Of a stretch of DNA of 38,823 nt, positions 4,301-28,635 are shown one piece after another (position 1 is the stretch's first letter; the number at the start of each line of letters is the position of its first letter). Source of the DNA: Actinomycetes bacterium (GTDB lineage Bacteria; Actinomycetota; Thermoleophilia; UBA2241); NCBI GenBank assembly GCA_029547745.1, contig JAKPOQ010000079.1:1-38823 (forward strand). The letters are read 5' to 3'. The notes under the pieces were generated by a model that worked only from the letters and a program-made list of their open reading frames with translations, searched no databases and was not told the origin of the DNA. The position numbers were made by a program, and so were the translations under genes.

Positions 4301-5728
4301 TCAAGCTTGCTCGAAGTACCGCTGGACTTCCCAGTCCGTGACGACGTTGTTGTCCAAGGCACTCTGTTCCTGCTTCGCGCAGTGCAACAGGTGCTGGAAG
4401 ACGTCCTCGCCGAACATCTCCCGCGCGACCTCGCTCTTCTCGAACTCGAGGATCGCCTCGTGCAGGGAGTAAGGCAGCCGGGTGACGTCCTCGGCCGCAT
4501 AGGCGTTGCCCTCGAAGCGTTCCGGCAACTCGAGTCGGTGCTCGATCCCATACAGACCGGCGGCGATGGTCGCCGCGAAGGCGAGGTAGACGTTGGCGTC
4601 GGCGCCCGGCGTACGGTTCTCGACCCGGAAGCCCCGGCCGTGGCCTACCGTCCGATACCCCACCGTACGGTTGTCGCCGCTCCACACACAAGCGGTCGGG
4701 GCCCACGAGGCAGGCTGGTAGCGCTTGTACGAGTTCACCAGAGGAGCGAACATCCAGCACAGCTCCCGTGCCGTCGCCAGTTGACCGGCAAGGTAGTGCT
4801 GGAAGGTCTTGGACATGTTGTAGGGCTGGCGCTCGTCCCACATCAGCGAATCCGTGTTCTCGGCGTTCCAGAGGCTCGAGTGGATGTGGCAGGACGAGCC
4901 GGCCTGCTGCATCGACCACTTGGCCATGAAGGTGATCGCCATCCCGGCGGCATCGGCGATCTCCCGGCAGCCATGCTTGAACACGGAATGGTTGTCGGCG
5001 GCCTCGAGCGCGTCCGCATACGTGATGTTGATCTCGTGCTGGCCGTGGCCCGCTTCGCCCTTGGAGAACTCGATCGGGATGCCGGCGGCAAGCATGTCGT
5101 TGCGGATCTTGCGGATGACGTGCTCGTCGCGCGTGGTCTGCAGCATGTGGTAGTCGATGATGTAGGTCGACGAGGGCCGCAGGGTGCGGTAGTCCGCATC
5201 GGCGATCGTCCGGTACGAGTCGTTGAAGAGGTAGAACTCAAGCTCGCTCGCCATGTTGACCGTGTAACCGGCCGCCCGCGCCCGTTCGAGCTGCCGCTTG
5301 AGGATGCTGCGCGGAGCGACGGCGATCAGTTCGCCGGTCTCCTCGTCCTCGAGGTCGCAGATCACGATCGCCGTCTTGTCGATCCACGGGCAGATCCGTA
5401 GCGTCGCCAGGTCGGGCACCAGACTGAAGTCGCCGTAACCGGTCTGCCACGAGGCGAACTTGTAGCCGGGAATGACCTGCATGTCCATGTCGACGGTGAG
5501 GAGGTACTCGCAAGCATGCAGGCCGGACGAGCCCAACACCTCCTCGAGGAAGAACCTCGGGACGACGCGCTTGCCGAGGAACCTCCCCTGCATGTCCGGG
5601 AACACGCACAGGACGGTGTCGACCAACCCGGCCTCGGCGAGCCGTCCTAACGTGTCGATGTCGATCTTGCCGGTCGGCACAGCTGTCACCATGCCCTCAA
5701 GGGTGTTCGCGTCAACCTCGACGGCCAT
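4301..5728 (-). CDS. glutamine-synthetase-like gamma-glutamyl-amine ligase
   Basis: The 475-residue protein has the glutamine synthetase catalytic fold: MASELEFYLF near residue 160, GEAGHGQHEINITY near 225, SSCHIHSSLW near 280, NSYKRY near 325 and NRTVGYRTV near 350 leading to VENRTPGADANVYLA. The GHGQHEIN block, the GSSCHIH metal site and the missing type-I adenylylation end resemble the PuuA / GlnA3 / GMAS-like ligases that couple glutamate to an amine rather than classical GlnA. ATG 5728 has GGAGA four to five bases upstream; the longer frame to 5773 lacks a site. It lies between the aldehyde oxidoreductase gene (54-base gap) and the HAD phosphatase. Probable role: ATP-dependent glutamylation of a small amine released by the methyltransferases (methylamine, ethanolamine or a polyamine). 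The substrate is inferred. Confidence 0.88.
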   Translation of the reverse strand: MAVEVDANTLEGMVTAVPTGKIDIDTLGRLAEAGLVDTVLCVFPDMQGRFLGKRVVPRFFLEEVLGSSGLHACEYLLTVDMDMQVIPGYKFASWQTGYGDFSLVPDLATLRICPWIDKTAIVICDLEDEETGELIAVAPRSILKRQLERARAAGYTVNMASELEFYLFNDSYRTIADADYRTLRPSSTYIIDYHMLQTTRDEHVIRKIRNDMLAAGIPIEFSKGEAGHGQHEINITYADALEAADNHSVFKHGCREIADAAGMAITFMAKWSMQQAGSSCHIHSSLWNAENTDSLMWDERQPYNMSKTFQHYLAGQLATARELCWMFAPLVNSYKRYQPASWAPTACVWSGDNRTVGYRTVGHGRGFRVENRTPGADANVYLAFAATIAAGLYGIEHRLELPERFEGNAYAAEDVTRLPYSLHEAILEFEKSEVAREMFGEDVFQHLLHCAKQEQSALDNNVVTDWEVQRYFEQA

Positions 5729-5782
5729 CTGCTCTCCTTCACGTATGGCGGCACGACCCGGCCGCATTGCCATGGGGATCGG

Positions 5783-7702
5783 TCATCCCGCCCTCACCGT
5801 CGCCGGGCTCCTGCGGGGCGCCGCCAGCGACGGCTGCAGCCACGTGAGCCCCAGCTCACGCAGCTTGCCGTCGCTCGGGCGCCCTGTCTCGAGGTCCCAG
5901 CCCATCATCTCGTAATAACTGCGCGCCGCGGCGACGATCTCGTCACGGTCCAGCCGCTTGCCCGGCGTCGTGCCCTTCTCGAACGCGTCGTAGACCCTGT
6001 CGGGCAACGCGTCGAACTGCGGCCTCGCACCTTCGCGGACGTTGAACGCGTTGAGCATGTTCGCGCGCCGCTCGCCGACCTTCATCAGGTACCACAGGTT
6101 GACCGGGAAGCCCGTCACGGCGCGCACGATGTCCTCGATGTCGCGGTAACCGTAGAGCCCGCCCGGTGAGTAGCAAAAAGCGCACAACTCGAGCGTGTCG
6201 AGGAGCGAGTAGAAGTACTGCGTGTAGACGACGTAGCGCACCTTCTGTTCGTTCATCTCGCCGAACGGCACGGCGCTCTCGATGCCCAGGCCGACGATGT
6301 CGGGGCCGCAGGCGTTGAGCATGCCGTCGTGTTCGCAGCTCATGTGGTCCGGTCCGAACGGGTTGACCGAGTACATGAGCGCCATGGTCTTCTTCGCCTG
6401 CGGCATGTGCGCCGGCAGCCCGACGCCCTTCACGTGCACGGCGTACCGCGCCGATCGCGGCCCGAACGCCTCGACGGCGCGCGAGAAGCCCTCGGCGAGG
6501 ACGTCGCCGATGCCCTCGCGCTCGGCGATCCGGCGCGTGAGCTCGACGAGCACGGCGCCGTCGCCGAAACGCAGTTCCAAGCCGTCCGTCTGCTCGGGCC
6601 CGATGACCCCGTTCTCGTAGCACTCCACGGCGAACGCGATGAGGCCCCCTGTGGAGATCGTGTCCATACCGTAGGCGTTGCAGATCTCGTTGGCCTTGGC
6701 CACCGCCCTGATGTCGCTCACCTCGAGGTTGGAACCCATCAGCCCGATGGTCTCGAACTCGGGGCCGCCGTACGCCTCGTCGATCTCCCATGGCTCGGTC
6801 GCGGCGACCTGCTGCTTGCAGCGCATCACGCAGTTGGCGCAGGTGTCGCGCCGCCTGAAGATCGTGGCATGGAACACGTCGGTCTTGAGGCCGTCGACGC
6901 CGTCGAACACGCCTTCGCGGAAGTTGCGCGTGGTGATGTTGTCGATGCCGGCGTTGCCGTCGACCAGACCCGGCGTGCCGTTGGCACCGAAGTCCTGCCA
7001 GCCGGGCGAGTCCTTGAACGTGTCGGCGCCCTTGCGCGCCAGCTCCTTGACCTTCTCCTCGTCGGCGAACGCGTAGCGACGCTTGCCGCGCGCGGCCACG
7101 CCGACGAGGTTCTTCGCGCCCATCACCGCACCCATGCCGGTACGTCCGGCGAAGTGGTGCAGGTTGTTGGTGAGGTTGGCGAAGCGCACCCCGCGGCGCC
7201 CCGCCGGTCCGCACTGGACGATCTGCACGCGGGGGTCGTCGAGTTCCGCGCGGAGAGCCTCTTGTGTCTCCCTGGTCTTGAGCCCGGCGAGGTGCGCGGC
7301 CGGGCGGATATCGACCGTGTCGTCGTGGACCCACAGGTACACGGGCGCCTCCGCCCGGCCGTGCACGACCAGGGCGTCGAAACCCGCGTACTTGAGTTGA
7401 GGGCCGAAGTGCCCGCCGCACTGCGCGTCGCCGATCAGGCCGCTCTCGGGCGACTTGGCGCTCACGTTGAAGCGCGACAGACCCGAGATCGGCGCTCCGG
7501 TCACCACGCTCGGCGCGATGACGAGCACGTTCTCCGGCCCCAGCGGGTCGGCGCCGACGGGCACGTCACGCAACAGGTAGTACGCGGCCAGGGCGCTGCC
7601 GCCCAGGTAGGTCAGGAAGAACTGCTCCCCGGGCTGTTCGACGCTGACCTCGCCGGTGGTCAGGTCGACGTGCGCGATCCTGTCGTTGTAGCCCTGCGGC
7701 AT
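5783..7702 (-). CDS. aor: tungsten-dependent aldehyde:ferredoxin oxidoreductase
   Basis: The 639-residue product is full length for the AOR family. The N-terminal domain (LTTGEV, YLGGSALAAYYL, GAPISGLSRFNVSAKSP) binds the pterin cofactor. TCANCVMRC near residues 286-294 gives a C-x2-C-x3-C cluster motif, and a further cysteine pair (CAFC) near 505 supplies the fourth [4Fe-4S] ligand, as in known AORs. The enzyme oxidises an aldehyde to the acid with ferredoxin as acceptor and is typical of anaerobes. ATG 7702 has GAGAGGG upstream and follows the type-I glutamine synthetase gene by 19 bases. In this cluster it could oxidise the aldehyde made by the neighbouring SDR. No dedicated small ferredoxin subunit gene is adjacent. 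The aldehyde itself is unknown. Confidence 0.93.
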   Translation of the reverse strand: MPQGYNDRIAHVDLTTGEVSVEQPGEQFFLTYLGGSALAAYYLLRDVPVGADPLGPENVLVIAPSVVTGAPISGLSRFNVSAKSPESGLIGDAQCGGHFGPQLKYAGFDALVVHGRAEAPVYLWVHDDTVDIRPAAHLAGLKTRETQEALRAELDDPRVQIVQCGPAGRRGVRFANLTNNLHHFAGRTGMGAVMGAKNLVGVAARGKRRYAFADEEKVKELARKGADTFKDSPGWQDFGANGTPGLVDGNAGIDNITTRNFREGVFDGVDGLKTDVFHATIFRRRDTCANCVMRCKQQVAATEPWEIDEAYGGPEFETIGLMGSNLEVSDIRAVAKANEICNAYGMDTISTGGLIAFAVECYENGVIGPEQTDGLELRFGDGAVLVELTRRIAEREGIGDVLAEGFSRAVEAFGPRSARYAVHVKGVGLPAHMPQAKKTMALMYSVNPFGPDHMSCEHDGMLNACGPDIVGLGIESAVPFGEMNEQKVRYVVYTQYFYSLLDTLELCAFCYSPGGLYGYRDIEDIVRAVTGFPVNLWYLMKVGERRANMLNAFNVREGARPQFDALPDRVYDAFEKGTTPGKRLDRDEIVAAARSYYEMMGWDLETGRPSDGKLRELGLTWLQPSLAAPRRSPATVRAG

Positions 7703-7721
7703 GCCCGTACCCTCTCTCGTC

Positions 7722-9206
7722 TCAGCGGTCGTAGTACAAGGCGAACTCGTAGGGGTGCGGCCTGACGGCCATCGGACCCACCTCGTTCCTCATCTTGAGG
7801 TCGACCCAGTCGTCGACGAAGGCCTCGTCGACGATGCCCGTGGCGGTGAGGAAGTCGTGGTCCTCGCGCAGCGCCTCGAGGGCGAGCTGCAGACTGGTCG
7901 GGGCCTGCTTCATCGCCGCCCGCTCGGCCTCAGGAAGCGTGTACACGTTCACGTCGAAGGGACCGAAGCCGAGCTCCTTCGGGCTCATCCGCTTCTCGAT
8001 GCCGTCGGCCATGGCGGCGATCACCGTGGCCAGCGTCAGGTAGGGGTTGCCGATGGGGTCGGCCATGCGGTATTCGATGCGCTGCGCCGTCGGCGAGATC
8101 CCGTACGCCGGGATGCGCAGCGCCGCGCTGCGGTTGGCGAGGCCGAAGAACAGGTGGACCGGCGCCGCCAACCCGGGCGCGAACCGGCGGAACGAGTTCG
8201 TCGACGGGTTGCAGATCGCCATCATCGCCGGCGTGTGCTGCAGGAGCCCGCCGATGGCGTACAGGGCGGGCTCGCTGAGTGAGGCGTACGTACCTTCCTC
8301 GTAGAAGAGCGACCTGTCGCCTTCCTTGAGGTACAGGTGGAAGTGCATGCCGTTGCCGGCCTCGTCATGGAGCGGCTTGGGCATGAAGGTCGCTGTCTTG
8401 CCGTGGCTCAGGGCCACGGACTTGATGACGTCCTTCGCCATTTGCATATGGTCGCCGGCCAGAAGAGCGGGCTCGAAGCGGAACTCGATCTCGACCTGGC
8501 CCGGTCCGCCGAGCTCGTGATGGTGGTACTTCACCGGCACGCCGCACTGCCCCAGCGCCCAGACGATGTCGGCGCGCAGCTCGTACAGGTGGTCACGGGG
8601 CGGAGCGGCATGTTGGCCGACGGCACGTCCCAGATGGTAGCCGGAGTTCGGTCCCCACTCGTCGGAGTCAGAGTTCCAGCTCGCTTCCTCCGCGTCGATC
8701 ACCACCGTCTGGCGGTCTTGCGCGGACGCGTAGCGCACATCGTCGAAGACGTAGAACTCGAGCTCCGGCAGGACCATCAGTCGACCCTTGCCGGCGACCG
8801 CGCTCAGGCGCTCGACGGCGCGCCGCAAGATGCTGCGCGGGCAGCGGCTGAACTCGCTGCCGTCGGCGTTGCGGATGGTGCAGAGGATGTCGAGGGTCTT
8901 CGTCTCGGTGGAGGGGTCGAGGAAGGCCGTCGGCAGGTCGGGGACCATGCGCATGTCCGAGGCCTCGATCGTGCGGTAGCCGGGGTAGTTGGACATGCCC
9001 GCCCCCGTGCCCGCCGTGAGCAACTCCTCGTCGACCGCCGAGGGCGGGAAGCTGAGCTGTCTCGTGAGGCCGTTGAGGTCGGTGACGCGGAGGTTCACCA
9101 TCTCCACGCCCGCGTCGCGTATCCAGCTCAGCAGTTGGACGGGCGTGTCCGGGATGACGGCGGGCAGCGGCGCCTCGCGCCTGCGGCTGTCGGGCGACGG
9201 AACCAT
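7722..9206 (-). CDS. type-I glutamine synthetase family protein
   Basis: The 494-residue protein is close to classical GlnA in layout: beta-grasp start, LPELEFYVFD, HHHELGGPGQVEIEF, GNGMHFHLYL, NSFRRFAPG, NRSAALRIP, IEYRMADPIGNPYL, and the type-I C-terminus RPHPYEFALYY. The adenylylation-loop tyrosine is not evident. ATG 9206 is two bases downstream of the SDR stop codon, so translation is probably coupled; the frame continues upstream inside the SDR gene only as a shadow. Two glutamine-synthetase paralogues flank the AOR gene. Because this one sits in a catabolic operon, its acceptor may be an amine other than ammonia, but genuine glutamine formation cannot be excluded. Confidence 0.88.
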   Translation of the reverse strand: MVPSPDSRRREAPLPAVIPDTPVQLLSWIRDAGVEMVNLRVTDLNGLTRQLSFPPSAVDEELLTAGTGAGMSNYPGYRTIEASDMRMVPDLPTAFLDPSTETKTLDILCTIRNADGSEFSRCPRSILRRAVERLSAVAGKGRLMVLPELEFYVFDDVRYASAQDRQTVVIDAEEASWNSDSDEWGPNSGYHLGRAVGQHAAPPRDHLYELRADIVWALGQCGVPVKYHHHELGGPGQVEIEFRFEPALLAGDHMQMAKDVIKSVALSHGKTATFMPKPLHDEAGNGMHFHLYLKEGDRSLFYEEGTYASLSEPALYAIGGLLQHTPAMMAICNPSTNSFRRFAPGLAAPVHLFFGLANRSAALRIPAYGISPTAQRIEYRMADPIGNPYLTLATVIAAMADGIEKRMSPKELGFGPFDVNVYTLPEAERAAMKQAPTSLQLALEALREDHDFLTATGIVDEAFVDDWVDLKMRNEVGPMAVRPHPYEFALYYDR

Positions 9207-9208
9207 GG

Positions 9209-9976
9209 TCACGTGGCGATGAAGCCGCCGTCCACCAGCAGCTCGGCCCCCGTCACCCAGGAGGCCTCGTCGCTGGCCAGATACAGGGCCGCGTAGGCGA
9301 TGTCGCGCGGCTGACCCACCCGACCCAGCGGGATGGAGCTCACGACGTCGGCGACCCACTCCGGCTTCGCCATCTCCCTGGCCTGCATCGGTGTGTCGAT
9401 GATGCCGGGATGGATGATGTTGGCGCGGATGTGATCGGGGCCGTACTGGACGGCGAGCGACTTCGTCAAGGCGATGAGGGCACCCTTGGCGCTGGTGTAG
9501 GCGTCCTGCGGACGCGAAAAGCCGACCAACGCGGAGATGGAGCCGACGTTGATGATCGAGCCGCCGCCGTTCTCTTTGAGGTGCGGGACCGCGTACTTGA
9601 GGACGAGGAACACGCCGGTGAGGTTGATGGCGATGACCTTGTCCCAGTGGTCGCGTGGCGTGTCGACGACACTGGAGTCGTAGTCGCGCCACAGCACACC
9701 GGCGTTGTTGTAGACGACGTCGAGCTTGCCGAACTGGGCGACGCCGCCTTCGACGCCGGCCTTGACCTGCTCCTCGTCGGAGACATCGGTGACGAAGCCG
9801 GCGATCTCGCCGCCCTCCCCTTTCACAAGGGCCACCGTGTCGGCGAGCGCCTTCTCGTCGATCTCGAGCGCGATGATGCGGGCGCCGTGCTCGGCGAAGA
9901 GCCGGCAGGCCTCCCTGCCCTGGCCCATCCCGGCGCCGGTGATGAGGGCTACCTTGCCCTCGAGTCTGCCGCTCAC
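9209..9976 (-). CDS. short-chain dehydrogenase/reductase (SDR), NAD(P)-dependent
   Basis: The 255-residue protein is a classical SDR: cofactor motif TGAGMGQG near residues 14-21, NNAG near 90, a catalytic serine in NVGSISA, YTSAK (Tyr and Lys) near 160, and the C-terminal LLVDGGF. An acidic residue after beta-2 (LEIDEK) suggests NAD rather than NADP. GTG 9976 has AGGAGG seven to nine bases upstream. It is the first gene after a GC-rich hairpin and a candidate promoter, so it may head a subtranscript SDR-GS-AOR-GS-HAD. Likely reaction: oxidation of an alcohol to aldehyde or ketone, feeding the AOR downstream. The alcohol is not identifiable. Confidence 0.9.
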   Translation of the reverse strand: MSGRLEGKVALITGAGMGQGREACRLFAEHGARIIALEIDEKALADTVALVKGEGGEIAGFVTDVSDEEQVKAGVEGGVAQFGKLDVVYNNAGVLWRDYDSSVVDTPRDHWDKVIAINLTGVFLVLKYAVPHLKENGGGSIINVGSISALVGFSRPQDAYTSAKGALIALTKSLAVQYGPDHIRANIIHPGIIDTPMQAREMAKPEWVADVVSSIPLGRVGQPRDIAYAALYLASDEASWVTGAELLVDGGFIAT

Positions 9977-10183: not shown

Positions 10184-11605
10184 TCAGTCCGCCGGCGCCG
10201 GCGCGCCGCGCTGCAACCCGGTCTTCTTCAGGAACTGGTTGACGCAGTTGATCTCGATGTCGAGCAGCTCGGCGATGCGCACCTTGGCCGCGATGCCCTT
10301 GGCGACGCCGGGGACGCCCGTGACCGTGCCGATGTCGAGCTCCTCGCGGAGCTGACGCATCAGCGTCGGGTCGCTCAAGTCCAGCGGCGACACGTGGAGC
10401 TTGTCCGCGACGTACTTCTTGGCCTCGCCGATCCTCATCTTCTTGAGCTCCATCCTGGCTACCAGGTCTCCAGCAGCCCGGATGCCGCCCATCGATGAGG
10501 CCAGCAGATGCGCCATGTGCATGCCGGCAGGGTCGCCCGTGCCCACCTACAACCCGTCGCAGCGGCCGATCTCGATCATCGCCGCGCTCGCCCGGGTCAC
10601 GGCGTCGACGGCCGGCGTCTCGAACATCGGCACGCCGCCGACGCCCATGCCCACGTTGGCGTGCACGGGTATCTCGGCGATCTCGGTGCACTTCTTGATG
10701 AAGGTCAGGGCGCGCCCGAGGTTCCACGGCGCCGTCTTCTTGGTGTTCGTGTTGACGACGGGGCCGAAGATCGCCGCCCCCGCCTTCTCGCAGAGCTTGA
10801 GCTGCTCGTGCGGCCACAGGCCGGCGAGTCGCACCCCGTCGTACTCGAGCTCGCCGTGGAAGCCGAGCACCATCTCCGCCGCCATGCCGATCTCGACCGG
10901 CAGCCCCGTCTCTTTGGCCACGTGCTCCGTGCAGCGCAACACGGCGAGGAACTCGGCGTCGCCGGTCGAGGCCACGGTGTCGTAGTCGATGCCGTCGGCG
11001 CCCATCTCGACCATACAATCGCTCATCTCGATGCAGTCGCCGAGGCACGCCTCGAGTGCCTCTTCCTGAGTTCGACGCGCGCCGGCGATGTCGCCCTTCT
11101 GCAGCAGGTCGGACGGGTTCTCGAACGAACCGTCGGGGCGGTAATACAGCCCCAAGTTCGGCATGAAGCCGTAAAGCAGGGGAAAGATGGTGGTCTCCTG
11201 CAGCAGCTCCATGTGCAGTTGCTCGAGCGCCTTCAAGAAGCGTTGCGGCTTGACCGAGTAGTCGTTATGCGAGACCTCCATCGAGTCGAAGCCGAGCATC
11301 GACTCGAACAGACGCACGCCCACCTCGCGATTGACCGGAGCCACCACGCCGCTCGACATCCGTGACGAGTTGAGCGCGTTCACGCAGCCGTCCTTGGTCA
11401 TCACGACCTCGTGACCGCGCTCCACGCCCCAGACGCGTGTCGGCGCCGCGAAACAGTCGACGAGCCAGTCGACCTCGTTCTCGTCGAGGGCCGGGATCTT
11501 CGCCTTCGCCGCCGCGGCCTCCGACCCCTGCACGAACTCGGCGCGCAGTTCGTCCCGGGTCAGCTCGACGTTCGAGCCGTCGCCCATCCTCGTGAGGATC
11601 TTCAT
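10184..11605 (-). CDS. mtbB: dimethylamine:corrinoid methyltransferase with in-frame amber codon (pyrrolysine protein)
   Basis: The frame encodes 473 residues if the TAG at codon 353 (10547-10549) is read. Before it the sequence follows MtbB throughout: [101 protein letters not shown]. After the TAG the same frame continues with the conserved MtbB end: [43 protein letters not shown] and [18 protein letters not shown]. In known MtbB proteins pyrrolysine sits at this very spot, after a VDGI-type segment and before GVGDPLGM. MtbB moves a methyl group from dimethylamine to the Co(I) of a corrinoid protein, here most likely the product at 16933-17601. ATG 11605 has AGGAGG nine bases upstream. Ordinary gene calling gives two pieces (to 10547, and 10184-10546), which should be merged. 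Confidence 0.95.
10547..10549 (-). other. in-frame TAG, predicted pyrrolysine codon 353 of mtbB
   Basis: The minus strand reads GAC GGG TTG TAG GTG GGC ACG GGC GAC CCT, giving DGL-amber-VGTGDP with no frame change on either side. The flanking protein is conserved on both sides, which distinguishes recoding from a true stop or a frameshift. The final stop of the gene is TGA at 10184-10186. Decoding would need tRNA-Pyl(CUA) and PylS from elsewhere in the genome; none was seen in this window. Confidence 0.93.
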
Positions 11606-11687
11606 CCCTTTGGGCCTCCTCCTGCCGTCATGGCCCAAGCCCTCGCCGGCTCGGCAAGCCGACGTCGTCCTTGGCCTTTCGTGCTTC

Positions 11688-11729
11688 GCGGGCGGCGGGG
11701 CGGACCATGGTCCGCCCCGCCGCCCGCGC
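11688..11729. terminator. perfect 42-bp palindrome between the APC transporter gene and mtbB
   Basis: The sequence is self-complementary about 11708/11709 (centre GGACCATGGTCC) with 21-base arms rich in GC. It lies 39 bases after the transporter stop and about 80 bases before the mtbB start. There is no T-run. It could terminate or attenuate the upstream transcript, or protect its 3' end, thereby setting mtbB expression apart from the upstream genes. Confidence 0.7.
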
Positions 11730-11768
11730 GTCCGGTCACGTCCCACTTACGGCCGTACGCTCCGTCCG

Positions 11769-13511
11769 TCACTCGACCGGGATCTCCTTGGCCACTGCCT
11801 CGAGCGCCATGCCCTGGCTCTTGCGCACCGCCCAGGCGACCACCCAGATCACCGCGGCGGCGATGTACAGGACGCCCATGAAGATGCCGGACTCCTTGTT
11901 GTTGACGCCGTAGATCGAATCCTTGATGAACAGCGTGATGTTGAAGACCAGGAAGGCGGAGTAGATGGCCGCCACGATCGACATCCACGGAATGCCCAGG
12001 ATCTTGCCCTTGGGAAGCGGCGAGCTGTCCCAGATCGCCTTGCCGCGCCACGGCATGACCATGAACGCCAGGCCGCTGCCCAGGAACATGATGATGATGC
12101 CCAGCGTGGCGTCATAAGTGAAGAGCTTGACGATCGTCACCCCGTACTCCTCGACGACCGGCGTATAGGCATACAGGGCGGCGACGATGGTCGACGGGAT
12201 CGTCATCAGCAGCAGGGCGACGACTGGCACGCCGTTCGAGGTCACCCGCGCAGCGCCCTCAGGCAGGATCCGGTCGAACGCCGCCGCGAAGATCATGCGC
12301 GTCGACGAGAGGAACAGGGTGCCGAACCATCCGAAGAGCAACAGGCTGATGGCGGCGACGAGCACGACCTGGAAGGCCGCGTTCGGCACGATCCAGGAGA
12401 TCATCGCCGTCGGCGAGACGCTGTCGCCGCCGAGCGGCGAGATCCCCCACCAGTACGCTGCCATCGTCCCCATGAACGCCTGGTAGCCGACCTTCCACGT
12501 CATGAGGGCGAGGAAGGCCAGGGCGATGAGGGTCGGCACGAAGAGGCCGCCCAGCATCTGGTAGATGTTCTTGCGGAAGTCCTTGGCCCCGCGCACCTCG
12601 CCGTACAACGTGGCGCCCCAGTTCGGCCACGCCATCCAGAAGAGCATGAAGGGGACGAGGGTCCAGGTGGCCCAGCTCAGGCCGCCCGAGAAGGTCGAGG
12701 TCGGCATGCCTGTGCCCTTGCCGATCGCCTCCATGGCTTCGAACGCGCCGGCGTACGTCTCTCCCTCGACGGGGATGAGAGCGCCGGCGTCATCGTACTT
12801 GAAGAGGCCGGACGCGTCGGTCTCGTACTTCTGCAGGTTCAGCGTCCCGGCCTCACCGTAGTACTTGTTCGCCGCCTCGTTGAACCTGTCTTTGAAGCTG
12901 CTGCCGGACGTGACGAGCAAGAGGATGCCGGCCACGATGACGCCGGCGAGGCCGATCCACATGGCCCAGACCTGGAACTTGGCATAGGCCTTCATGCCGA
13001 TCGCCACGAGGGTCGAGGCGATGGCGATCACGACCAGGGCGGCGACGAAGATCCCCGTCGGGGTCCCCAGCCAGTCCGCCGCGCTGTTGAGCCCGAGGAT
13101 ACGGAAGATCGGTTTGACGGTGGTCTGCACGCCCATGTCGGCGTAGATCGGCGTCCAGAGCCACAGGATGAACCACCACCCTACGGCGGCGACGATGAAG
13201 CCCACCGCGCTGTGGAAGATGCGCGACATCCAGACGTAGTCGCCGCCGGCCCTCGGCATGGCCGAGATGAGGCCCGCGTACACGATGATCTCCATGACGA
13301 TGAAGACCGAGGTGATCACGATCGACCAGAACAGGCTGCCGCCGGGGATGAAGCACGCGTACGCGAACGACCAGATGGCGAGGAACAGGTTCACCGAGAA
13401 GAACGAATACCGGAACCCGTCCCCGCCCGACCACGCTTTGACGAGGCCGCTCGCTTTTCTCACGAACAGGGTCTGTTCCGCCGGCTTTGGTGGCTCCGCG
13501 GTTGTCGCCAT
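11769..13511 (-). CDS. APC-superfamily amine/amino-acid transporter
   Basis: The 580-residue product is an integral membrane protein with about 12 hydrophobic segments and the APC-type early motif (ISAMPRAGGDYVWMSRI near residue 85). It is longer than many APC permeases because of a roughly 70-residue hydrophilic insert (about 205-275) before the GGLSWATWTLVPFMLFWMAW segment. ATG 13511 has GGAGGAGG upstream. It sits between the metallophosphoesterase gene and mtbB in the same orientation, so it is the probable importer of the methylated amine used by the cluster. No closer substrate assignment is possible from sequence alone. Confidence 0.88.
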   Translation of the reverse strand: MATTAEPPKPAEQTLFVRKASGLVKAWSGGDGFRYSFFSVNLFLAIWSFAYACFIPGGSLFWSIVITSVFIVMEIIVYAGLISAMPRAGGDYVWMSRIFHSAVGFIVAAVGWWFILWLWTPIYADMGVQTTVKPIFRILGLNSAADWLGTPTGIFVAALVVIAIASTLVAIGMKAYAKFQVWAMWIGLAGVIVAGILLLVTSGSSFKDRFNEAANKYYGEAGTLNLQKYETDASGLFKYDDAGALIPVEGETYAGAFEAMEAIGKGTGMPTSTFSGGLSWATWTLVPFMLFWMAWPNWGATLYGEVRGAKDFRKNIYQMLGGLFVPTLIALAFLALMTWKVGYQAFMGTMAAYWWGISPLGGDSVSPTAMISWIVPNAAFQVVLVAAISLLLFGWFGTLFLSSTRMIFAAAFDRILPEGAARVTSNGVPVVALLLMTIPSTIVAALYAYTPVVEEYGVTIVKLFTYDATLGIIIMFLGSGLAFMVMPWRGKAIWDSSPLPKGKILGIPWMSIVAAIYSAFLVFNITLFIKDSIYGVNNKESGIFMGVLYIAAAVIWVVAWAVRKSQGMALEAVAKEIPVE

Positions 13512-13585
13512 GGATCAGCCTCCTCCTCCAGATCAGGCCGCGCGGTCCCCCCGCCGCGGCCAGTGCATGCTGCGCCCGGGTCGGT

Positions 13586-14542
13586 TCACCCGGAGGTGAG
13601 CCGATACTTCTTGACCTTGTCCTTGCCGTCGAGCTCGATGACGCAGCCGTCGAGCGTGCCCTCGACGTATGAGCTGCCCGGGTTCACCACGAGGGTCCTC
13701 CCCATGCGGATGGCTCCTCTGCTCTCGTGGATGTGACCGTGCAGCGACAACAGCGGCTGGACTTCCGTTATCACCTCCCTGACGGCCGTCGAGCCCACAT
13801 GGGCGGTATCCTGCCCCTGGACCTCGAGTCGCTCCCAGTCGATCTTGGGAGCCACGTCGAGCTGCGTATCGTACGGCGGCGCGTGCAGGCCCAACACGAG
13901 TCTGTCGGGGGGCGCCGTCGCCATCTCGATCACCCGCGCAAGTCGCTCCTTGAGCTTGTCCTCCTCTTCCTCACGAGGGGTGTCCCATGGGGTCGGATTG
14001 GTCCAGCCGCTCGACACAAGCTGGTAACCGGCCGGCAGGTCGATGGCGTTCGCCTCGCCCACCTGGATGGTGTGCGAGGTGGCGAGGATCTCATCGATGT
14101 CGTAGGCATCGTCGTTCCCGGGGCAGACGATGCACTGGATACCGCTTCCCTCAAGACGCTCGTCGGCGAACGCCACCCATTCCTCGACGGTCTTGCGCAT
14201 CTCTTCCTTGAAGAGGGCGTCGAGCGCACCGGTGTCGGCCGAGTAGCGCTGCATCTCCTCGTGGCTCATGACGACCGGGTAGTAGCCATGGTCGCGTACG
14301 GACCGCTTCGCCTTGGCGAGCTCGTCCTCGCCTTCGACCTCATGGCGGACGTCCTGGAGATGGAAGATCCAGTGGCCGCTTCCCTCCTCGGCGAACGGCA
14401 CGATGGCCTTGCCCGTCATGTCGCCGCCGAGGATCAGGACGTCGGCCTCGTAGTGCTTGCCCGCGTTCACGAACTTGCGCCAGCAGACTTCCGAGCCGTG
14501 TACGTCGGTGGCAAAAAAGACCCGTGGTCCCTTCTTGCTCAT
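13586..14542 (-). CDS. calcineurin-like metallophosphoesterase
   Basis: The 318-residue protein carries the metal-binding blocks of the family in order: FFATDVHGS (residue 13 region), LILGGDMTG (about 36-44), VCPGNDD (about 140), LGLHAPP and LSLHGHIHES. A longer than usual segment (about 50-130, rich in charged helices) separates the second and third motifs. Members hydrolyse phosphomonoesters or phosphodiesters. ATG 14542 has AAGGGGG upstream. It lies 25 bases after the choline-kinase-like gene, which suggests that the two act on related phosphorylated compounds, for example a glycerophospho-diester or phosphorylated amino alcohol. That link is inference. Confidence 0.88.
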   Translation of the reverse strand: MSKKGPRVFFATDVHGSEVCWRKFVNAGKHYEADVLILGGDMTGKAIVPFAEEGSGHWIFHLQDVRHEVEGEDELAKAKRSVRDHGYYPVVMSHEEMQRYSADTGALDALFKEEMRKTVEEWVAFADERLEGSGIQCIVCPGNDDAYDIDEILATSHTIQVGEANAIDLPAGYQLVSSGWTNPTPWDTPREEEEDKLKERLARVIEMATAPPDRLVLGLHAPPYDTQLDVAPKIDWERLEVQGQDTAHVGSTAVREVITEVQPLLSLHGHIHESRGAIRMGRTLVVNPGSSYVEGTLDGCVIELDGKDKVKKYRLTSG

Positions 14543-14567
14543 GTGCGCCCCCTTCTTGCGCTCGCCG

Positions 14568-15557
14568 TCATACGAGGGCCAGCCATGCCGGGTACTCCGG
14601 GTCCGCCACCACAGCCTCGGCGCGCGCCACGCGCTCCATGCCCCAGTCCATGTAGTCGTGCTCGATCTTCGAGACGGTGTGCTGGATCATCGCCCACACG
14701 CCCCACCAGACGCCGGAAACCATCTTGTAGAGCATCATGCGGGCGAAACGCTTCTCGTCCATGCGGCCGCAGTACGCCTCGATCACGAGCCGCTCCTCGG
14801 CGCGCGAGAACGGGTGCTCCATGACGAAGTCACCGAGGTCGAAGTAGGGGTCGGTCATCCCACCGTACTCCCAGTCGATGATCCACATGCGGCCGCTGGC
14901 GTCGACGATGAAGTTCTCGCTGAGGAGGTCGTTGTGGCAGGCCGCCGGTCGCGGCTGGTCACGTGCGCAAGCCGCCTCGATGTCGTCGAGGGCCTTGAGC
15001 ATGGCCGTGAGGCGCTCCGGCATGGGGGCGCCGATCTCGCGGGCGATCTTCACGTAGCCACGGATCATCTCGAACACGTGGATCTCGTGCTTGAAGATCG
15101 CCCGCTCGTGCACGCGACGGGCCGTCTCGACCGCCTGGCGTATACGCGCCGGATGCCCGGCCATCGTCTCGGGATGCATGATCTCGCCGTCGACGAAGGC
15201 GATCACCATCGCACCCTCGGGCTCGATCACGTACACCACTTCGGGGCCCACACCGGCTTTGGCCGCCTGGATCATGCAGTCGCGCTCGTTGGCCCGGTCG
15301 ATGAACATGTCCGTACCCTGTCCGGGCACCCGGAGCACGTACTTGCCGCCGCCGTTCTCGGGACCGCCGTCGACCCAGACGATGTAGTTGTGGTTGGTGA
15401 TGCCGCCGCCGAGCTCCTCCCAGCGGACGTCGTGGCCCTGCCACGCCGGGATGCGGGCGATCGCCTCGGCGGCCGTCATCGGGTGTCCGTTGCCGGCCGG
15501 CGCGCTTGCCTGCGGCTGCGCGCCGGCCTCGGCGCGAGCCTGTTCCGGCGCCGTCAT
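14568..15557 (-). CDS. choline/ethanolamine-kinase-like phosphotransferase (APH fold)
   Basis: The 329-residue protein shows the choline/ethanolamine kinase and LicA type pattern: GGGITNHNYIVW (nucleotide loop, near residue 49), CHNDLLSEN (Brenner motif, near 205) and IIDWEYGG (metal-binding Asp, near 226). These enzymes phosphorylate choline, ethanolamine, thiamine or similar alcohols with ATP. The first 25 residues are Ala/Pro-rich and probably disordered. Its ATG overlaps the stop of the MtmB-like gene as ATGA (15554-15557), so translation is coupled. Choline-kinase relatedness is the best clue in the cluster that the substrate may be an N-methylated amino alcohol. An unrelated small-molecule kinase cannot be excluded. 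Confidence 0.85.
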   Translation of the reverse strand: MTAPEQARAEAGAQPQASAPAGNGHPMTAAEAIARIPAWQGHDVRWEELGGGITNHNYIVWVDGGPENGGGKYVLRVPGQGTDMFIDRANERDCMIQAAKAGVGPEVVYVIEPEGAMVIAFVDGEIMHPETMAGHPARIRQAVETARRVHERAIFKHEIHVFEMIRGYVKIAREIGAPMPERLTAMLKALDDIEAACARDQPRPAACHNDLLSENFIVDASGRMWIIDWEYGGMTDPYFDLGDFVMEHPFSRAEERLVIEAYCGRMDEKRFARMMLYKMVSGVWWGVWAMIQHTVSKIEHDYMDWGMERVARAEAVVADPEYPAWLALV

Positions 15558-16936
15558 GAGACGGGCACCTCGAGACCCATGCCGGCGAGCTCCTCGCGGA
15601 CCTCGTCCATGACGCGCTGGTAGTCGGCGTTCACGATGCGCTTGGTGCGCGGGTCGTAGACCTCTTGGAAGGTGAGGCCCTTGTCGGGCTCCTTGAGCTT
15701 GTCGCCGAAGAGCGGGAAGAGCTTCTGGCAGATCGGCTCGGCCTCGGCCCGCGTGAGCCTGGCCGCGGCGAGGCCGATCTCGGCGTGGAAGCGGTGGTCG
15801 TCAGGCACCAGGGAGTCCGGCTGGACGGCCATCGCCGGATGGCCGCTGAACACGTTGCCGCCGGACGTGACCACGGCGAGCATGTAGCAGGCCATCTCGT
15901 AGTGGTACTGCTTCGTCCCCGAGCCGCCGCCCAGGTAGGGGAGGTTGACCATCGGGTAGCCCATGTTGCGCCCGACGGCCGCGTTGGAGAGGGCGATCGC
16001 CCAGATGAGCGGCTTTGTCGACGACAGGTGTAGCTTGCTGTGCAACGGCGCGTTGTAGTGGTACGTGCCGCGCATGATCAGGTTGCCCATGATCATGTAG
16101 CAGGTCGCCGTGACGGCGACGCCCTCGGCGCCGCCGGCATAGCCGCCGAAGAGCGGCGTCGACGTCGAGCCGATGTTGGCGCCGATGGTGTTGTAGAAGG
16201 CCACCTTCTGCAGCGCCTCGTAGCCGACCACCATCTCGCTGAGGAAGTCGATGAGGAAGCCGTCGCTGGGGCGCAGGCCAAAGTCCGGGTAGGTGGCGGC
16301 GAACATCGAGGCTGGCTGCGACGCCGCCGAGATGCCGTTGATGATCGGCAGGCCCACGCGTCCGGAGCGCAGGATGCCCTCGCGCGCGAGCCGCACTGTC
16401 TTGATGGTGGCAAGCACTTCCTGCGGCGAGCGCACGCGGGCGTCCTTCCCGCGGATGTGCAGGATCGACGGTACACTCACCGAGTCGACAATGCTGAAGG
16501 ACGCCATCTTCTCGACCGTGTCTACGAAGACCTGCTCGTCGGTCGTGTAGATGCCGCCGCCCACGTGCACCCACGGACGGTCGTCCGTGGTGTCGGGGCG
16601 GCGGCCCCTCATCGCCTTCCGTTCGCGGCCCTCGCCGAAGGTCGCGGAGGTGGGGGCCTGGGCACACGCCGTGAGGATCTCGTCCCGGGTGAACTCCATG
16701 ACCCGGTTGGTCTCGGGGCAGTACGCGCCCGCCTCGGCGAGCAGGTCGACGGCCGCCGAGAAGACGTTGTCGGTGAGCTCGTCGTCGGTGTTGACGATGG
16801 TCTGCTTGTCCCACTTGATGCCGTAGCGCGCGATGACCTCGGCGAGCTTCGGCACGTAGCGCTTCATGTAGTAGTCGGTCTCGCTCGTCAAGGGGCCGGT
16901 CTCGGCCCTATCGAAGACCTCGATCAGGTCGATCAT
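15554..16936 (-). CDS. MtmB-like (monomethylamine methyltransferase family) protein lacking pyrrolysine
   Basis: The 460-residue protein matches MtmB along its length: N-terminal EVFDRAETGPLTSETDYYM, LLAEAGAYCPETNRVMEFTRDEI, a central PLFGGYAGGAEGVAV, HYNAPLHSKLHLSSTKPLIW, VTSGGNVFSGHPA and C-terminal GLTFQEVYDPRTKRIV. Known MtmB proteins carry pyrrolysine at residue 202 in a GMGV-O-GPET segment. Here the equivalent region is GRVGLPIINGISAASQ with Ile198-Ile199-Asn200, and no amber codon occurs anywhere. The TIM-barrel fold is therefore kept but the special residue is replaced. The ATG overlaps the corrinoid protein stop as ATGA. It probably methylates the neighbouring corrinoid protein, but the methyl donor may differ from monomethylamine. 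Sequence divergence from MtmB is considerable, so the family call is firmer than the substrate. Confidence 0.85.
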   Translation of the reverse strand: MIDLIEVFDRAETGPLTSETDYYMKRYVPKLAEVIARYGIKWDKQTIVNTDDELTDNVFSAAVDLLAEAGAYCPETNRVMEFTRDEILTACAQAPTSATFGEGRERKAMRGRRPDTTDDRPWVHVGGGIYTTDEQVFVDTVEKMASFSIVDSVSVPSILHIRGKDARVRSPQEVLATIKTVRLAREGILRSGRVGLPIINGISAASQPASMFAATYPDFGLRPSDGFLIDFLSEMVVGYEALQKVAFYNTIGANIGSTSTPLFGGYAGGAEGVAVTATCYMIMGNLIMRGTYHYNAPLHSKLHLSSTKPLIWAIALSNAAVGRNMGYPMVNLPYLGGGSGTKQYHYEMACYMLAVVTSGGNVFSGHPAMAVQPDSLVPDDHRFHAEIGLAAARLTRAEAEPICQKLFPLFGDKLKEPDKGLTFQEVYDPRTKRIVNADYQRVMDEVREELAGMGLEVPVS

Positions 16937-17601
16937 GCCGCGCTCCCCGCTTGGGCGCCGACGAGACGGGCGGCCAGCGTGACGGCTTCGTAGGCGCTGG
17001 GCGCCCAGCCGTCGGCGCCGATCTTCTGCGCCCACTCCTCGGTGGTCGCGCCGCCGCCGACCATCACCCTGTACTTGTCGCGCAGACCCTGCTCGCCGAG
17101 GGCGTCGATGACGTCCTTCTGGCCGATGAGGGTGGTGGTCAGCAGCGCCGACATGGCGATGATGTCGGCGTCGACCTCTTTCGCCTTGTCGATGAACTTG
17201 AACAGGTCGACGTCGATGCCGAGGTCCCAGACCTCGTAGCCCGACGTCTCGAACAGCAGCCGCAAGATGTTCTTGCCGATCGAGTGCAGGTCGCCCTTGA
17301 CGGTTCCGAGCACGATCCTGCCCTTCTTCGGGCCCTCGCCCCCGCTCTCCCTGATCTTGGGCTCCAGTACCGCCATCGCGCTCTGGAACGCGAGCGCGGC
17401 CTGCATGAGCTCGGGCAGGAAGATCTCCTCGCACTCGAACTGCTCGCCGATGACGTCGAGCCCCGGCAGCAGGCCGTCGTCGATCACCTTGCGCGCGTCG
17501 ACGCCAGCGGCCAGCGCCTTGTCGACCGTGGCCAGGACTTTCTCCTCGTCCTGGTCGATGACCGACTGCTTCAACTCCTCGAAGATCCCGTCATCCCCCA
17601 T
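16933..17601 (-). CDS. mtbC: methylamine-type corrinoid (B12-binding) protein
   Basis: The 222-residue protein has the two-domain layout of MtbC/MtmC/MttC. An N-terminal helical cap (about 1-85: LKQSVIDQDEEKVLATVDKALAAG, LLPGLDVIGEQFECEEIFLPELMQAA) is followed by a Rossmann-like cobalamin domain with GTVKGDLHSIGKN, in which His of DxHxxG near residue 105 is the lower cobalt ligand. SALLTTT and VGGGATTEEWA follow. It carries methyl groups between methyltransferases. It is the only corrinoid protein in the window, so it presumably serves the MttB-like, MtmB-like and MtbB proteins. ATG 17601 has GAGGTGG eight bases upstream and is preferred over GTG 17613. The exact symbol is a best fit by context; mttC or mtmC would be equally compatible. 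Confidence 0.93.
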   Translation of the reverse strand: MGDDGIFEELKQSVIDQDEEKVLATVDKALAAGVDARKVIDDGLLPGLDVIGEQFECEEIFLPELMQAALAFQSAMAVLEPKIRESGGEGPKKGRIVLGTVKGDLHSIGKNILRLLFETSGYEVWDLGIDVDLFKFIDKAKEVDADIIAMSALLTTTLIGQKDVIDALGEQGLRDKYRVMVGGGATTEEWAQKIGADGWAPSAYEAVTLAARLVGAQAGSAA

Positions 17602-17723
17602 GGGATGCACCACCTCGTCTCAGGTCGCTCTTCTGGACCGGTCTCGCTGACCGCTCTGGCGGCAGCGGCTGTCAGGCTGCGTCTCGTCGTCCTCCTTCAT
17701 CCAGCTACCTGCGGTCGTCGCCT

Positions 17724-19175
17724 CTAGGCGAGCGCTTCCGGGGACGTCGCGTCTCCGTCCACGATCCCGGGGAAGTGCTCGCGGATGCGGGCGTCGAGGG
17801 CCCCGTCCCAGACGGCGGGGTTGGGGGCGGCGAGGATGCGCCGCGCCTCGGCGAGGGCGCGGTCCTGGAGCTGTGGACGGCCCGCGTCCTCCCACTGGCT
17901 GCGGGTACCGCGCTCGGCGAGGCGCGGCAGGAACGCTGCCGTCCTCATGCGCTTCTTGGTGTGGTCGCGGCCCATGTAGCTGCCGCCGGGACCGACGGCC
18001 GCGATCTCGTCGAGGGCCAGCTCGTCCTCGCCGAACTCGAGCCCGCGCCAGGCGCGCTTGTCCATCAGGGCGATCTCGTTGTCGGTAACGCACTTGCCGA
18101 AGTCGAAGGCCATGAGCGAACCGAGGAGGCCGCCCATGTTGAGCAGCGTGGCGCCGGCTTCGACCGCGAGCATGGTGTTCATGCCGGTCTCGAAGCCGGC
18201 CTGGGCGTCGTTCGCATGGGCGTTCGTGAGCCCGATGTACCCGCCCGCAGGCACGCCGTAGAAGCGCGCGAGCTGGGCCTGGGCGGCGATCAGCAAGCCC
18301 GTCTCGATGGCGCCGGGCGTGTACGCTCCGGTGCGCATGTCGGCCACCGTCGGCAGACCGGCGTAGATGACCGGCGTCGCCTCGCGCACCATCTGCTGGA
18401 GCACGGTGATGGCGAGGAACTCCGCGTTCCCCACGACGAGGCAGCCGGGAAGCGTCATGGGCGCTGTGAGGCCGGCATTGGGGACGACCGTCGTGTAGAC
18501 GGGCAGGCCCTGCTCGGTCAGCCACATCACAGCCTCGGTCGAGTCGACGTCCATGGTGAGCGGGCTGACCATGGGGCAGTAGTGATGGTTGATGATCGGC
18601 CGCTCACGGTAGGCGTCGCGGCCGCCGACGATGAGCTCGCCGAGCTCGAGCACGCCGTGCAGGTCGGCCATCGTCGGCGTGTTGCTGCGCACCGGCTTGA
18701 GGCAGTTCTTGAGCGCCGGGTAGAACCGGCTCAGGCTGAACTGCCCCTCGGGCGCGTCGGCCGCCAACGTCGAGATACTGAACACGTCGAACCCGGGCAG
18801 CTCGTTGACGAGGTAGGCGATCCGGGCGATGTCGGTCGAGGTCGCCCGGCGTTCGACGCCGGTGACCGGGTCGATCACGTTAGGCGCCGACGACCCCGTG
18901 ACGACCGTCGGCCCGTCGTCGGGGACGGTGCGGTCGAAGCGGGGGTCGCGGCCGCGGAAGGTGAAGCGCGGCGGGACCATCTTGCGGTACCGCTCGACGA
19001 CGTCGGACGGGAACTTCACGAGACCCGTGTCGCCGTCGACGACGCAGCCGTGCCTCCCAAGGACCTCGCGCGCTCCGGGATGATGGGCGAGGATACCGAC
19101 CGATTCGAGCACGTCGAGCGACGCCTCGTGGAGGCGCTCGACCTCGGCCGGCGTGAGCAGCTCTGCGAACGTCAT
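17724..19175 (-). CDS. MttB-family methyltransferase without pyrrolysine
   Basis: The 483-residue protein belongs to the trimethylamine methyltransferase family (COG5598). Features include LTPAEVERLHEASLDVLESVG at the start, VVTGSSAPNVIDPVTG, QGLPVYTTVVPNAGLTAPMTLPG, YAGLPTVADMRTGAYTPGA, NAHANDAQAGFETGMNTMLA and the terminal WDGALDARIREHFPG. There is no in-frame TAG, so it is a non-pyrrolysine member. Characterised relatives demethylate quaternary amines such as glycine betaine, proline betaine or carnitine; which one applies here cannot be read. Its start overlaps the upstream kinase stop (ATGA, 19172-19175). It ends in TAG at 17724-17726; reading through would add only eight residues before a TGA, so TAG is taken as a real stop here. 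Confidence 0.92.
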   Translation of the reverse strand: MTFAELLTPAEVERLHEASLDVLESVGILAHHPGAREVLGRHGCVVDGDTGLVKFPSDVVERYRKMVPPRFTFRGRDPRFDRTVPDDGPTVVTGSSAPNVIDPVTGVERRATSTDIARIAYLVNELPGFDVFSISTLAADAPEGQFSLSRFYPALKNCLKPVRSNTPTMADLHGVLELGELIVGGRDAYRERPIINHHYCPMVSPLTMDVDSTEAVMWLTEQGLPVYTTVVPNAGLTAPMTLPGCLVVGNAEFLAITVLQQMVREATPVIYAGLPTVADMRTGAYTPGAIETGLLIAAQAQLARFYGVPAGGYIGLTNAHANDAQAGFETGMNTMLAVEAGATLLNMGGLLGSLMAFDFGKCVTDNEIALMDKRAWRGLEFGEDELALDEIAAVGPGGSYMGRDHTKKRMRTAAFLPRLAERGTRSQWEDAGRPQLQDRALAEARRILAAPNPAVWDGALDARIREHFPGIVDGDATSPEALA

Positions 19176-20392
19176 GCGGCTGACCCTCCTCCCTCGCTTC
19201 CCGAGCTTGCGACGCCGACCGTAGCGGCCGAAGCCGCGAGCGCGGCGAGCTCGTCCTGGTGGGCCTCGATGTACTCCATGAACGCGAGCTGATGGGTGAG
19301 GAAGAAGAGGTACTCGTCCACATCGGGGTCACGAGCGCAGTCGTAGGCGGTGATGTCCCAGTTGAGGACGTACAGGTTGGCGTTGGCCACCATGCGCGGA
19401 AGGCAGGCGAGCTCGGCCTCGCTCATCGGGCCCGGCATGGCGTAGCGCGCCGCCTCCTCCTGGTAGGCGCGCACGAACAGCCGGGCCTTGTCGAGCCTGA
19501 TCTCGCCGTCGTCCGGGCCCTCCCATGAACTGCAGAAGTAGACGATCCCCTCCGCCACGTCGAAGAGCCGGTAGTCGAGCTTCGACCAGTCGAAGTCGAA
19601 CAGGGCGACCGCCTCCTCGCCGACCCACTTCAGGTTGCCGGGGTGGTAGTCGCAGTGGACCGGGATGTAGGGCATGCCCGCAAGTCGAGGTTCGATGGCG
19701 GCGCCCTTCCGCAGCACTTCGAAGACGCCGGGCAGGCGGGAGAAGAGACACTCCCCGAACTTGGTGTCAGCGGCGCGGTCGGCACAGCTCGTGAACGTCT
19801 CTCCGAGCGTCCGCAAGAACTCCATGATCGGCGGCTGATGGCGTGCGAACCCGCCTGGGTCGAAGTCGTGCGCCAGAGCATGGAAGCGGGCGAGCATACG
19901 TCCGCCGCTCTCGAACTCAGCGTCGGTGCAGCGGTTCTTCACCCACGTGTAGCGGTCCTCGCCGCCAAGGAGCTCGTAGACGGCGAAGAACCGGGGGATA
20001 CGCTGGCCGTCGAGGAGTTCCTCGCGCGTCACGAGCGTCCGTCCCAGCTTGTTCGGGTATACCTCGGCGGCGATGTGGTCGCGGCTGTTGATGTGACAGG
20101 TGAGAGCGTGTTCGAAGCAGATCTCGTTCTCGTCGGCGTACCGGTTGTACTTGCGCACGAAGTAACGATGCTCGCCGTCCGCTGCCCTCGTGACGACCGC
20201 GAAGCTCAGGTTCACGTAACCGCCGAGGACCTGCTCGACGCTGACCACCCGGCCGAGGTCGTAGTCGTCGTCCACGACCCCGGTGATCTGCTGGCTGAGG
20301 AACTCGGTCTCGAGCGCGTCCCGCAGCCGCGTGGCCTCGGCGGCCATCCTGTACGCGAGCTCGTAGAGCTCGTTCGCCTGCTCCACATCCAT
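19172..20392 (-). CDS. APH-fold small-molecule kinase
   Basis: The 406-residue protein has the aminoglycoside-phosphotransferase/homoserine-kinase fold: GGYVNLSFAV (nucleotide loop, near residue 57), VHCDYHPGNLKW (catalytic loop, near 245) and ALFDFDWSKLD (metal-binding Asp, near 268). It differs from the choline-kinase-like protein of the same cluster in length and motif context, so the two are not recent duplicates. ATG 20392 follows deoR by 27 bases and the gene overlaps the MttB gene by four bases. A kinase as first structural gene after a DeoR regulator fits the common scheme in which DeoR proteins sense a phosphorylated pathway intermediate. The substrate is unknown. Confidence 0.82.
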   Translation of the reverse strand: MDVEQANELYELAYRMAAEATRLRDALETEFLSQQITGVVDDDYDLGRVVSVEQVLGGYVNLSFAVVTRAADGEHRYFVRKYNRYADENEICFEHALTCHINSRDHIAAEVYPNKLGRTLVTREELLDGQRIPRFFAVYELLGGEDRYTWVKNRCTDAEFESGGRMLARFHALAHDFDPGGFARHQPPIMEFLRTLGETFTSCADRAADTKFGECLFSRLPGVFEVLRKGAAIEPRLAGMPYIPVHCDYHPGNLKWVGEEAVALFDFDWSKLDYRLFDVAEGIVYFCSSWEGPDDGEIRLDKARLFVRAYQEEAARYAMPGPMSEAELACLPRMVANANLYVLNWDITAYDCARDPDVDEYLFFLTHQLAFMEYIEAHQDELAALAASAATVGVASSGSEGGGSAA

Positions 20393-20419
20393 CAGTCGTC
20401 CACCCTCCCGGTCTCGCCG

Positions 20420-21214: not shown

Positions 21215-21252
21215 TGGACACCCCCTTTCAACACGGCCGACAACCGAACAAA

Positions 21253-21263
21253 GTCGCACACAT
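21253..21263 (-). promoter_or_regulatory. operator-like element at the deoR transcription start
   Basis: The minus strand reads ATGTGTGCGAC, followed by TTTGTTCGG. The TGTG/TGCGA pattern recurs at 21399-21412 and at 10021-10046. Its position over the -10 box and start site suits a repressor. Confidence 0.35.
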
Positions 21264-21289
21264 CCTATGTCGGTTCCCTTACGTGTCAA
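21262..21289 (-). promoter_or_regulatory. candidate promoter of deoR and the methyltransferase operon
   Basis: On the minus strand a perfect TTGACA (21284-21289) is followed after 16 bases by TAGGAT (21262-21267), about 50 bases before the TTG start of deoR. This is the best sigma-70-like promoter for the cluster. The start of transcription would fall within the operator-like sequence just downstream. Confidence 0.6.
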
Positions 21290-21398
21290 GCCCAAGCCGC
21301 GGACGCCTGCGGCGTTCAGTGCGCACGAGGACGGGCCGGAACGGCTGGGTCCGCACGTGCGTGGACGGGCGCAGACGGTACGTGACCGCGCAGAACCT

Positions 21399-24969: not shown

Positions 24970-27816
<2,847 letters not shown>

Positions 27817-28607: not shown

Positions 28608-28635
28608 ACGGGTGCCGGGCATGCGCACATCGGCG

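Follow-up and report, generated by a model that had tools for sequence, protein, structure and literature searches.

Evidence that a soil Thermoleophilia actinobacterium reads UAG as pyrrolysine in methylamine-degrading enzymes

Can an actinobacterium read UAG as an amino acid in some genes and as a stop in others, and what might set the two kinds of codon apart? The question is raised by a methyltransferase gene with one in-frame TAG in a 38,823-nucleotide stretch of actinobacterial DNA (the window). A first-pass annotation had proposed that this gene encodes MtbB, of the dimethylamine:corrinoid methyltransferase family, with pyrrolysine at the TAG. It placed that codon exactly, at 10547–10549 in an otherwise continuous frame, but misjudged the strand: mtbB runs on the minus strand from 11605 to 10184, and the plus-strand reading of 10184–11605 is not a gene. 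An AGGAGG motif (11620–11615) precedes the ATG (11605–11603), and a TGA (10186–10184) closes the frame. Standard translation yields two open reading frames, as had been anticipated, and truncation at the UAG would leave a product of 352 residues; with the UAG read as pyrrolysine, the product has 473.

The merged protein is a full-length member of its family. It matches the Pfam profile Dimeth_Pyl (PF09505) from profile positions 5 to 462, across the UAG, with 610.9 bits (cut-off 25), and scores 513.5 bits against the equivalog model TIGR02368 (cut-off 369.1), in keeping with the identity first assigned to it. The UAG falls in the family's DGL-O-VG-GDP motif, within a conserved motif of 12 residues and a stretch of 13 (letters not shown). 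TAG occupies this codon in 39/39 codon-aligned homologues of a first set and 59/59 of a second, while wobble bases nearby are free to vary across both sets. A chance origin of the open frame with its single TAG is excluded. As controls, two other in-frame ‘ORF-TAG-ORF’ pairs in the genome, one pairing an ABC permease with its downstream ATPase and one an sdhC-like with a downstream sdhD-like gene, proved to be mere adjacent genes, each with a start codon soon after the TAG; mtbB is unlike them because a single domain profile spans its TAG. Structure comparison adds little beyond fold class. A PDB sequence search returned no MtbB relative, and an AlphaFold model (pLDDT 84.6) searched with Foldseek brought up nothing more specific than TIM barrels, betaine-homocysteine methyltransferases among them, at TM scores of 0.3–0.4.

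If the UAG is decoded as pyrrolysine, the genome should hold the means to do so. The host assembly (2.27 Mb in 203 contigs, 95.8% complete, 3.1% contamination) carries every component whose absence would have spoken against the first-pass proposal, all on one contig, C81, which is not the contig of the window: pylSc (20206–21126, 299 bits), pylSn (23705–23965, 121.5 bits), tRNA-Pyl with a CUA anticodon (26977–27049, minus strand), and, each above its profile cut-off, pylD (27158–28222, 185.2 bits), pylC (28113–29579, 357.1 bits) and pylB (29315–30634, 438.6 bits). The best PDB matches of PylSc are 3dsq and 2zni, structures of the Desulfitobacterium hafniense PylSc. As in bacterial split synthetases of that type, PylSn and PylSc are separate, and the tRNA shares the 6-bp anticodon stem and 3-base variable loop. 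The arrangement differs in that pylSc lies on the opposite strand, several kilobases from the pylB-C-D-T block, and the D loop of the tRNA is longer in its ARAGORN fold. A single base separates acceptor and D stems; this trait, the anticodon stem and the variable loop are all listed as tRNA-Pyl features in PMC11764691. Further tRNA-Pyl genes occur in loci of related genomes. In a PylS tree, sequences group by lineage (Thermoleophilia/Actinomycetota and Chloroflexota relatives), with a genome of the same genus (G001) as sister, which argues against mis-binning of C81. Adjoining pylBCD are genes for a BluB-like flavoprotein and for another aldehyde ferredoxin oxidoreductase (11354–12145 and 13034–14962, minus strand, in locus L010 of that contig). 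The window also holds a tmRNA gene (28254–28607, minus strand) with the tag AESDLALAA.

UAG has evidently not been given over to pyrrolysine throughout. A crude gene call over 346 kb of the genome ended ORFs with TGA 174 times, TAG 41 times and TAA 8 times; some of the 41 TAG ends are recoded and others are plain stops, such as those of the two control pairs. Plain TAG stops thus coexist with recoded ones, so UAG decoding must be local or tolerated rather than a global reassignment. The TAG-joined pairs inspected for further pyrrolysine genes in this non-exhaustive 346-kb sample were ordinary neighbors or overrun gene ends. Selenocysteine in a RamA-like corrinoid activator encoded on contig C94 was considered and rejected, the apparent internal TGA being the gene's own stop.

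Pyrrolysine genes are numerous in this genome. All seven of its mtbB genes carry exactly one TAG, and of its 20 MttB-family matches five have one TAG and fifteen have none; its sole MtmB homologue lacks a stop, and no pyrrolysine-containing MtmB was found in the genome. Seven MtbB and 20 MttB-family members make a large expansion for 2.3 Mb. In a class-level sample of 99 genomes, mtbB occurred in 20, with one TAG in every match that spans the site, and PylS was present in 19 of these 20 and in 0 of the other 79; the exception, G013, is 84% complete. A wider draw from the phylum found mtbB in 2 of 397 genomes, both Thermoleophilia. The relatives that have names are MAGs of Thermoleophilia or Actinomycetota and two of Chloroflexota, and the close ones bear out the actinobacterial host proposed at first pass. 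Two MtmB groups without pyrrolysine exist in the class, the window's type, found in several relatives, and a second that is more MtmB-like. In one relative, an mtmB copy (G081:C1:99499-100850) looks broken, with two overlapping pieces, one containing a TGA, near an intact TAG-bearing copy.

The actinobacterial setting was at first thought unusual. It is indeed uncommon, as the phylum draw indicates, but pyrrolysine in Actinobacteriota is already known: expression of pyrrolysine mtbB and mttB genes in Actinobacteriota MAGs from Stordalen Mire is described in PMC10805028, and the review PMC11764691 includes two PylRS genes from actinobacteria in its count. The Stordalen Mire MAGs share phylum and enzyme families with our genome. 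Among the genera named in PMC10805028 is Bog-752, and a relative from a bog isolate labeled bog_752, presumably of that genus, has an orthologue of the window mtbB (locus L012). The paper's passage on these genes deals with gene expression, and pyl gene sets, cassette linkage and RNA context are not treated in it. Relative to the MtbB family at large, the present case is distinguished by its actinobacterial host, by seven paralogues in one genome and by an orthologue group placed inside a choline-kinase-type cassette.

In minus-strand order, that cassette comprises a DeoR-family regulator (20420–21295; PF00455, PF08220), an APH-type phosphotransferase (19172–20392; PF01636), a non-pyrrolysine MttB homologue without internal stop (17724–19175; PF06253, 271 bits), an MtbC/MtmC-like corrinoid-binding protein (16933–17613; TIGR02370, 202 bits, just below the cut-off of 215), a non-pyrrolysine MtmB homologue (15554–16933; PF05369, ~234 bits) with no stop in its domain and Ile opposite Pyl202 in an alignment to 1l2q, a choline/ethanolamine-kinase-like phosphotransferase (14568–15557; PF01633, 90.8 bits), a calcineurin-like phosphoesterase (13586–14542; PF14582/PF00149), an APC-type permease (11769–13511; PF13520) and mtbB. 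Two corrinoid proteins elsewhere in the genome, on contigs C11 and C81, exceed the TIGR02370 cut-off. Synteny of the kinase-like gene, phosphoesterase and permease is conserved; the whole order, with the APH kinase and regulator in the same places, is identical in one related locus (L014) and rearranged in two others (L011 and L013). In the mtbB tree, the window gene belongs to a seven-member clade with support of 100/100, and 6 of its 7 members have kinase, phosphoesterase or permease neighbors. The remaining mtbB loci examined lack the cassette set, and several adjoin pyrrolysine mttB or corrinoid genes. On the evidence of gene order, then, the window's orthologue group is tied to a cassette of choline-kinase-like, phosphoesterase, permease and non-pyrrolysine MttB and MtmB genes, a link for which we found no prior report in the literature searched.

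Known pathways suggest what this cassette might do. MthK, MthB and MthC phosphorylate and demethylate choline (PMC12155760), and MtqB, a non-pyrrolysine MtmB homologue, acts on tetramethylammonium and choline (PMC13044021). With the MthBCAK pathway the cassette has in common a kinase-like gene, a non-pyrrolysine MttB and a corrinoid protein encoded together, and with MtqB a non-pyrrolysine MtmB homologue; the likeness of the window enzymes to MthB or MtqB is Pfam-level homology. Unlike either system, the cassette predicted here from its genes combines both non-pyrrolysine families with a pyrrolysine MtbB, two kinases and a phosphoesterase. By analogy, we propose a choline-type demethylation cassette that includes a pyrrolysine MtbB for dimethylamine or a related methylated amine; judging from the neighbors, such an amine arising in the cassette pathway is the likely substrate. 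On the other side of mtbB (4301–9692, minus strand), a gene for an aldehyde ferredoxin oxidoreductase lies between two glutamine-synthetase-like genes. A link of these genes to amine nitrogen handling is possible; a scan of related loci did not find them next to mtbB, and they were rejected as part of the cassette.

What distinguishes a recoded UAG from a terminating one may lie in the surrounding RNA. In the window gene the UAG is preceded by a UUG leucine codon (10550–10552, minus strand), and leucine at this −1 position is encoded by UUR in 35 of 36 genes of the first set and 51 of 52 of the second (86/88), even though these genes use UUR for ~9% of their leucines. Among 25 leucine columns in 39 mtbB genes, the −1 column is an outlier, the next-highest reaching 17% UUR. 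Downstream, the glycine codon at +26 is GGA in 39/39 genes of the first set, with zero changes on a tree on which the majority of other wobble positions changed repeatedly, and in 59/59 of the second (98/98). The wobble positions of codons +24 and +29 rank 1 of 439 for pairing excess and for mutual information in the first set and 1 of 561 in the second, where the concentric pairs +23/+30 and +22/+31 likewise stand out; the second set, 59 mtbB genes fetched once the hypothesis had been formed, shares lineages with the first and contains paralogues, and is thus not phylogenetically independent of it. These covarying pairs define a candidate hairpin 66–97 nucleotides after the UAG (10452–10483, minus strand) with an apical GGAGAYCU. 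Its 11-pair helix is paired in 91.6% of cells, compared with 27–38% when slid, and has 66 doubly changed cells, compared with 23 in shuffles; independently, RNAalifold predicts the same hairpin core with an AGAY loop.

The same region matches the Rfam model PYLIS_2 (RF02509) at 10450–10549 on the minus strand (67.7 bits, gathering score 36), beginning exactly at the UAG, and PYLIS_1 and PYLIS_3 matches begin at the UAGs of related mtmB and mttB genes. The second PYLIS_2 helix (model positions 73–92) coincides with the inner helix of our hairpin, and its wobble pairs covary. Its outermost Rfam pair, 73–92, is mostly an A–C mismatch. Our helix extends about six pairs further outward than the model's, and the model does not cover the −1 UUR codon. 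By contrast, pairing in the first helix (model positions 7–38) is about what column make-up predicts across the 98 sequences, which give it no covariation support. According to a 2010 review (PMC2933860), a PYLIS-like element had not been observed in mtbB, covariance in mtmB was only limited, and replacing the mtmB PYLIS cut incorporation without abolishing it. Unlike the statement on mtbB in that review, we observe strong covariation in mtbB.

In the mttB family the constraint takes another form. Pyrrolysine mttB genes have UUG as the −1 leucine codon in 23/23 cases and GCA as the alanine codon at +24 in 42/42; in the set compared from UAG to the +33 codon (L260–L299), GCG-UUG-GCA at +22 to +24, GGU at +11 and GGG at +33 form an unusual and fixed combination that is not seen in non-pyrrolysine mttB of the same lineage. 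In the latter, the codons listed at +24 do not include GCA, and GGC encodes the +33 glycine in 22/25 genes, as against 3/39 pyrrolysine mttB genes, so the signature tracks the UAG genes. mttB showed no covariation, its constraint being on primary sequence alone, and the −1 UUR bias is common to mtbB, mttB and mtmB. As judged from codon alignments, the recoded UAGs lie in a synonymously constrained RNA context, and we found no earlier report of this codon and covariation context in the literature searched.

How should these observations be put together? Very probably, the window mtbB is a genuine pyrrolysine-containing MtbB whose UAG is decoded by the C81 system; insertion would be aided by local context, and the enzyme would serve a choline-type cassette. 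PylB, PylC and PylD would synthesize pyrrolysine, PylSn and PylSc would charge tRNA-Pyl(CUA) with it, and that tRNA would decode the UAG at 10549–10547. As in the Methanosarcina enzymes, and as family membership suggests, pyrrolysine in the MtbB active site would hold the methylated amine and help transfer its methyl group to Co(I) in a partner corrinoid protein. It is very hard to credit, instead, that the UAG genuinely terminates translation, results from a sequencing error or marks a decaying gene in two fragments. Standard translation does yield two ORFs, ordinary gene-TAG-gene neighbors do occur in the genome, and fragmented copies exist in some relatives (for example, the G081 mtmB split by TGA), but all aligned homologues spanning the site keep the UAG, in independent MAGs of several sources, the flanking protein is strongly conserved, and the genome has a pyl system, which co-occurs with UAG genes. 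The conserved UAG and the pyl genes in practice refute such a reading. Equally improbable is readthrough by a near-cognate tRNA or other suppressor that inserts an ordinary amino acid: the genome encodes a dedicated tRNA-Pyl and PylRS, the UAGs fall in families known to use UAG for pyrrolysine, and non-pyrrolysine MttB homologues carry sense codons, mostly for A, S or T, at the pyrrolysine column.

Rather doubtful, though well short of improbable, is the view that this MtbB is a plain house dimethylamine enzyme whose place beside the kinase and permease is incidental. Its equivalog score above the TIGR02368 cut-off and the six further mtbB copies fit that view; the recurrence of cassette neighbors across most of a fully supported clade, and the different surroundings of the other mtbB loci examined, favor an orthologue group that would serve the cassette, with its kinases, phosphoesterase, permease, non-pyrrolysine MttB and MtmB and corrinoid protein. 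Opinion on the RNA signals must be more evenly divided. The simplest idea would be that the context favors tRNA-Pyl over release factor, with UAG still a true stop in other genes, decoding local, and the UUR-UAG context plus a downstream element (the mtbB hairpin or the fixed mttB sequence) tipping the outcome toward pyrrolysine insertion rather than termination. The mtbB hairpin starts ~66 nucleotides downstream of the UAG, however, outside a ribosome paused there, which makes a role other than the choice between tRNA-Pyl and release factor possible. Codon constraint and hairpin could accordingly serve mRNA stability or other regulation unrelated to UAG decoding, a possibility to be taken seriously if not quite at even weight, and one that the lack of covariation in the mttB signature also suits; yet that signature is present in pyrrolysine mttB and absent from non-pyrrolysine mttB of the same lineage, and the UUR bias touches the UAG itself in all three families. 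Tentatively, we suggest that bacterial pyrrolysine insertion may be programmed in cis by UUR-UAG and a family-specific downstream element; together they would set recoded UAGs apart from those that terminate, perhaps with the help of a ribosomal or trans-acting partner. The downstream element might be, with the same reserve, the covarying hairpin with its invariant loop in mtbB and the fixed GCG-UUG-GCA-type sequence in mttB.

More broadly, the evidence from sequence supports the conclusion that a soil Thermoleophilia actinobacterium reads UAG as pyrrolysine, the 22nd amino acid, in methylamine-degrading enzymes such as this MtbB. Automated annotation splits such UAG-bearing genes (in this one genome, seven of mtbB and five of mttB), and a whole family of methylamine-degrading soil actinobacteria can be missed in consequence. 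The cassette link and the RNA-context evidence add interest beyond the presence of a pyrrolysine MtbB. High-GC codon usage makes testable the long-argued question of RNA signals at pyrrolysine UAGs, and the conserved signals described here, the hairpin included, suggest a possible way to tell ordinary from recoded UAGs.
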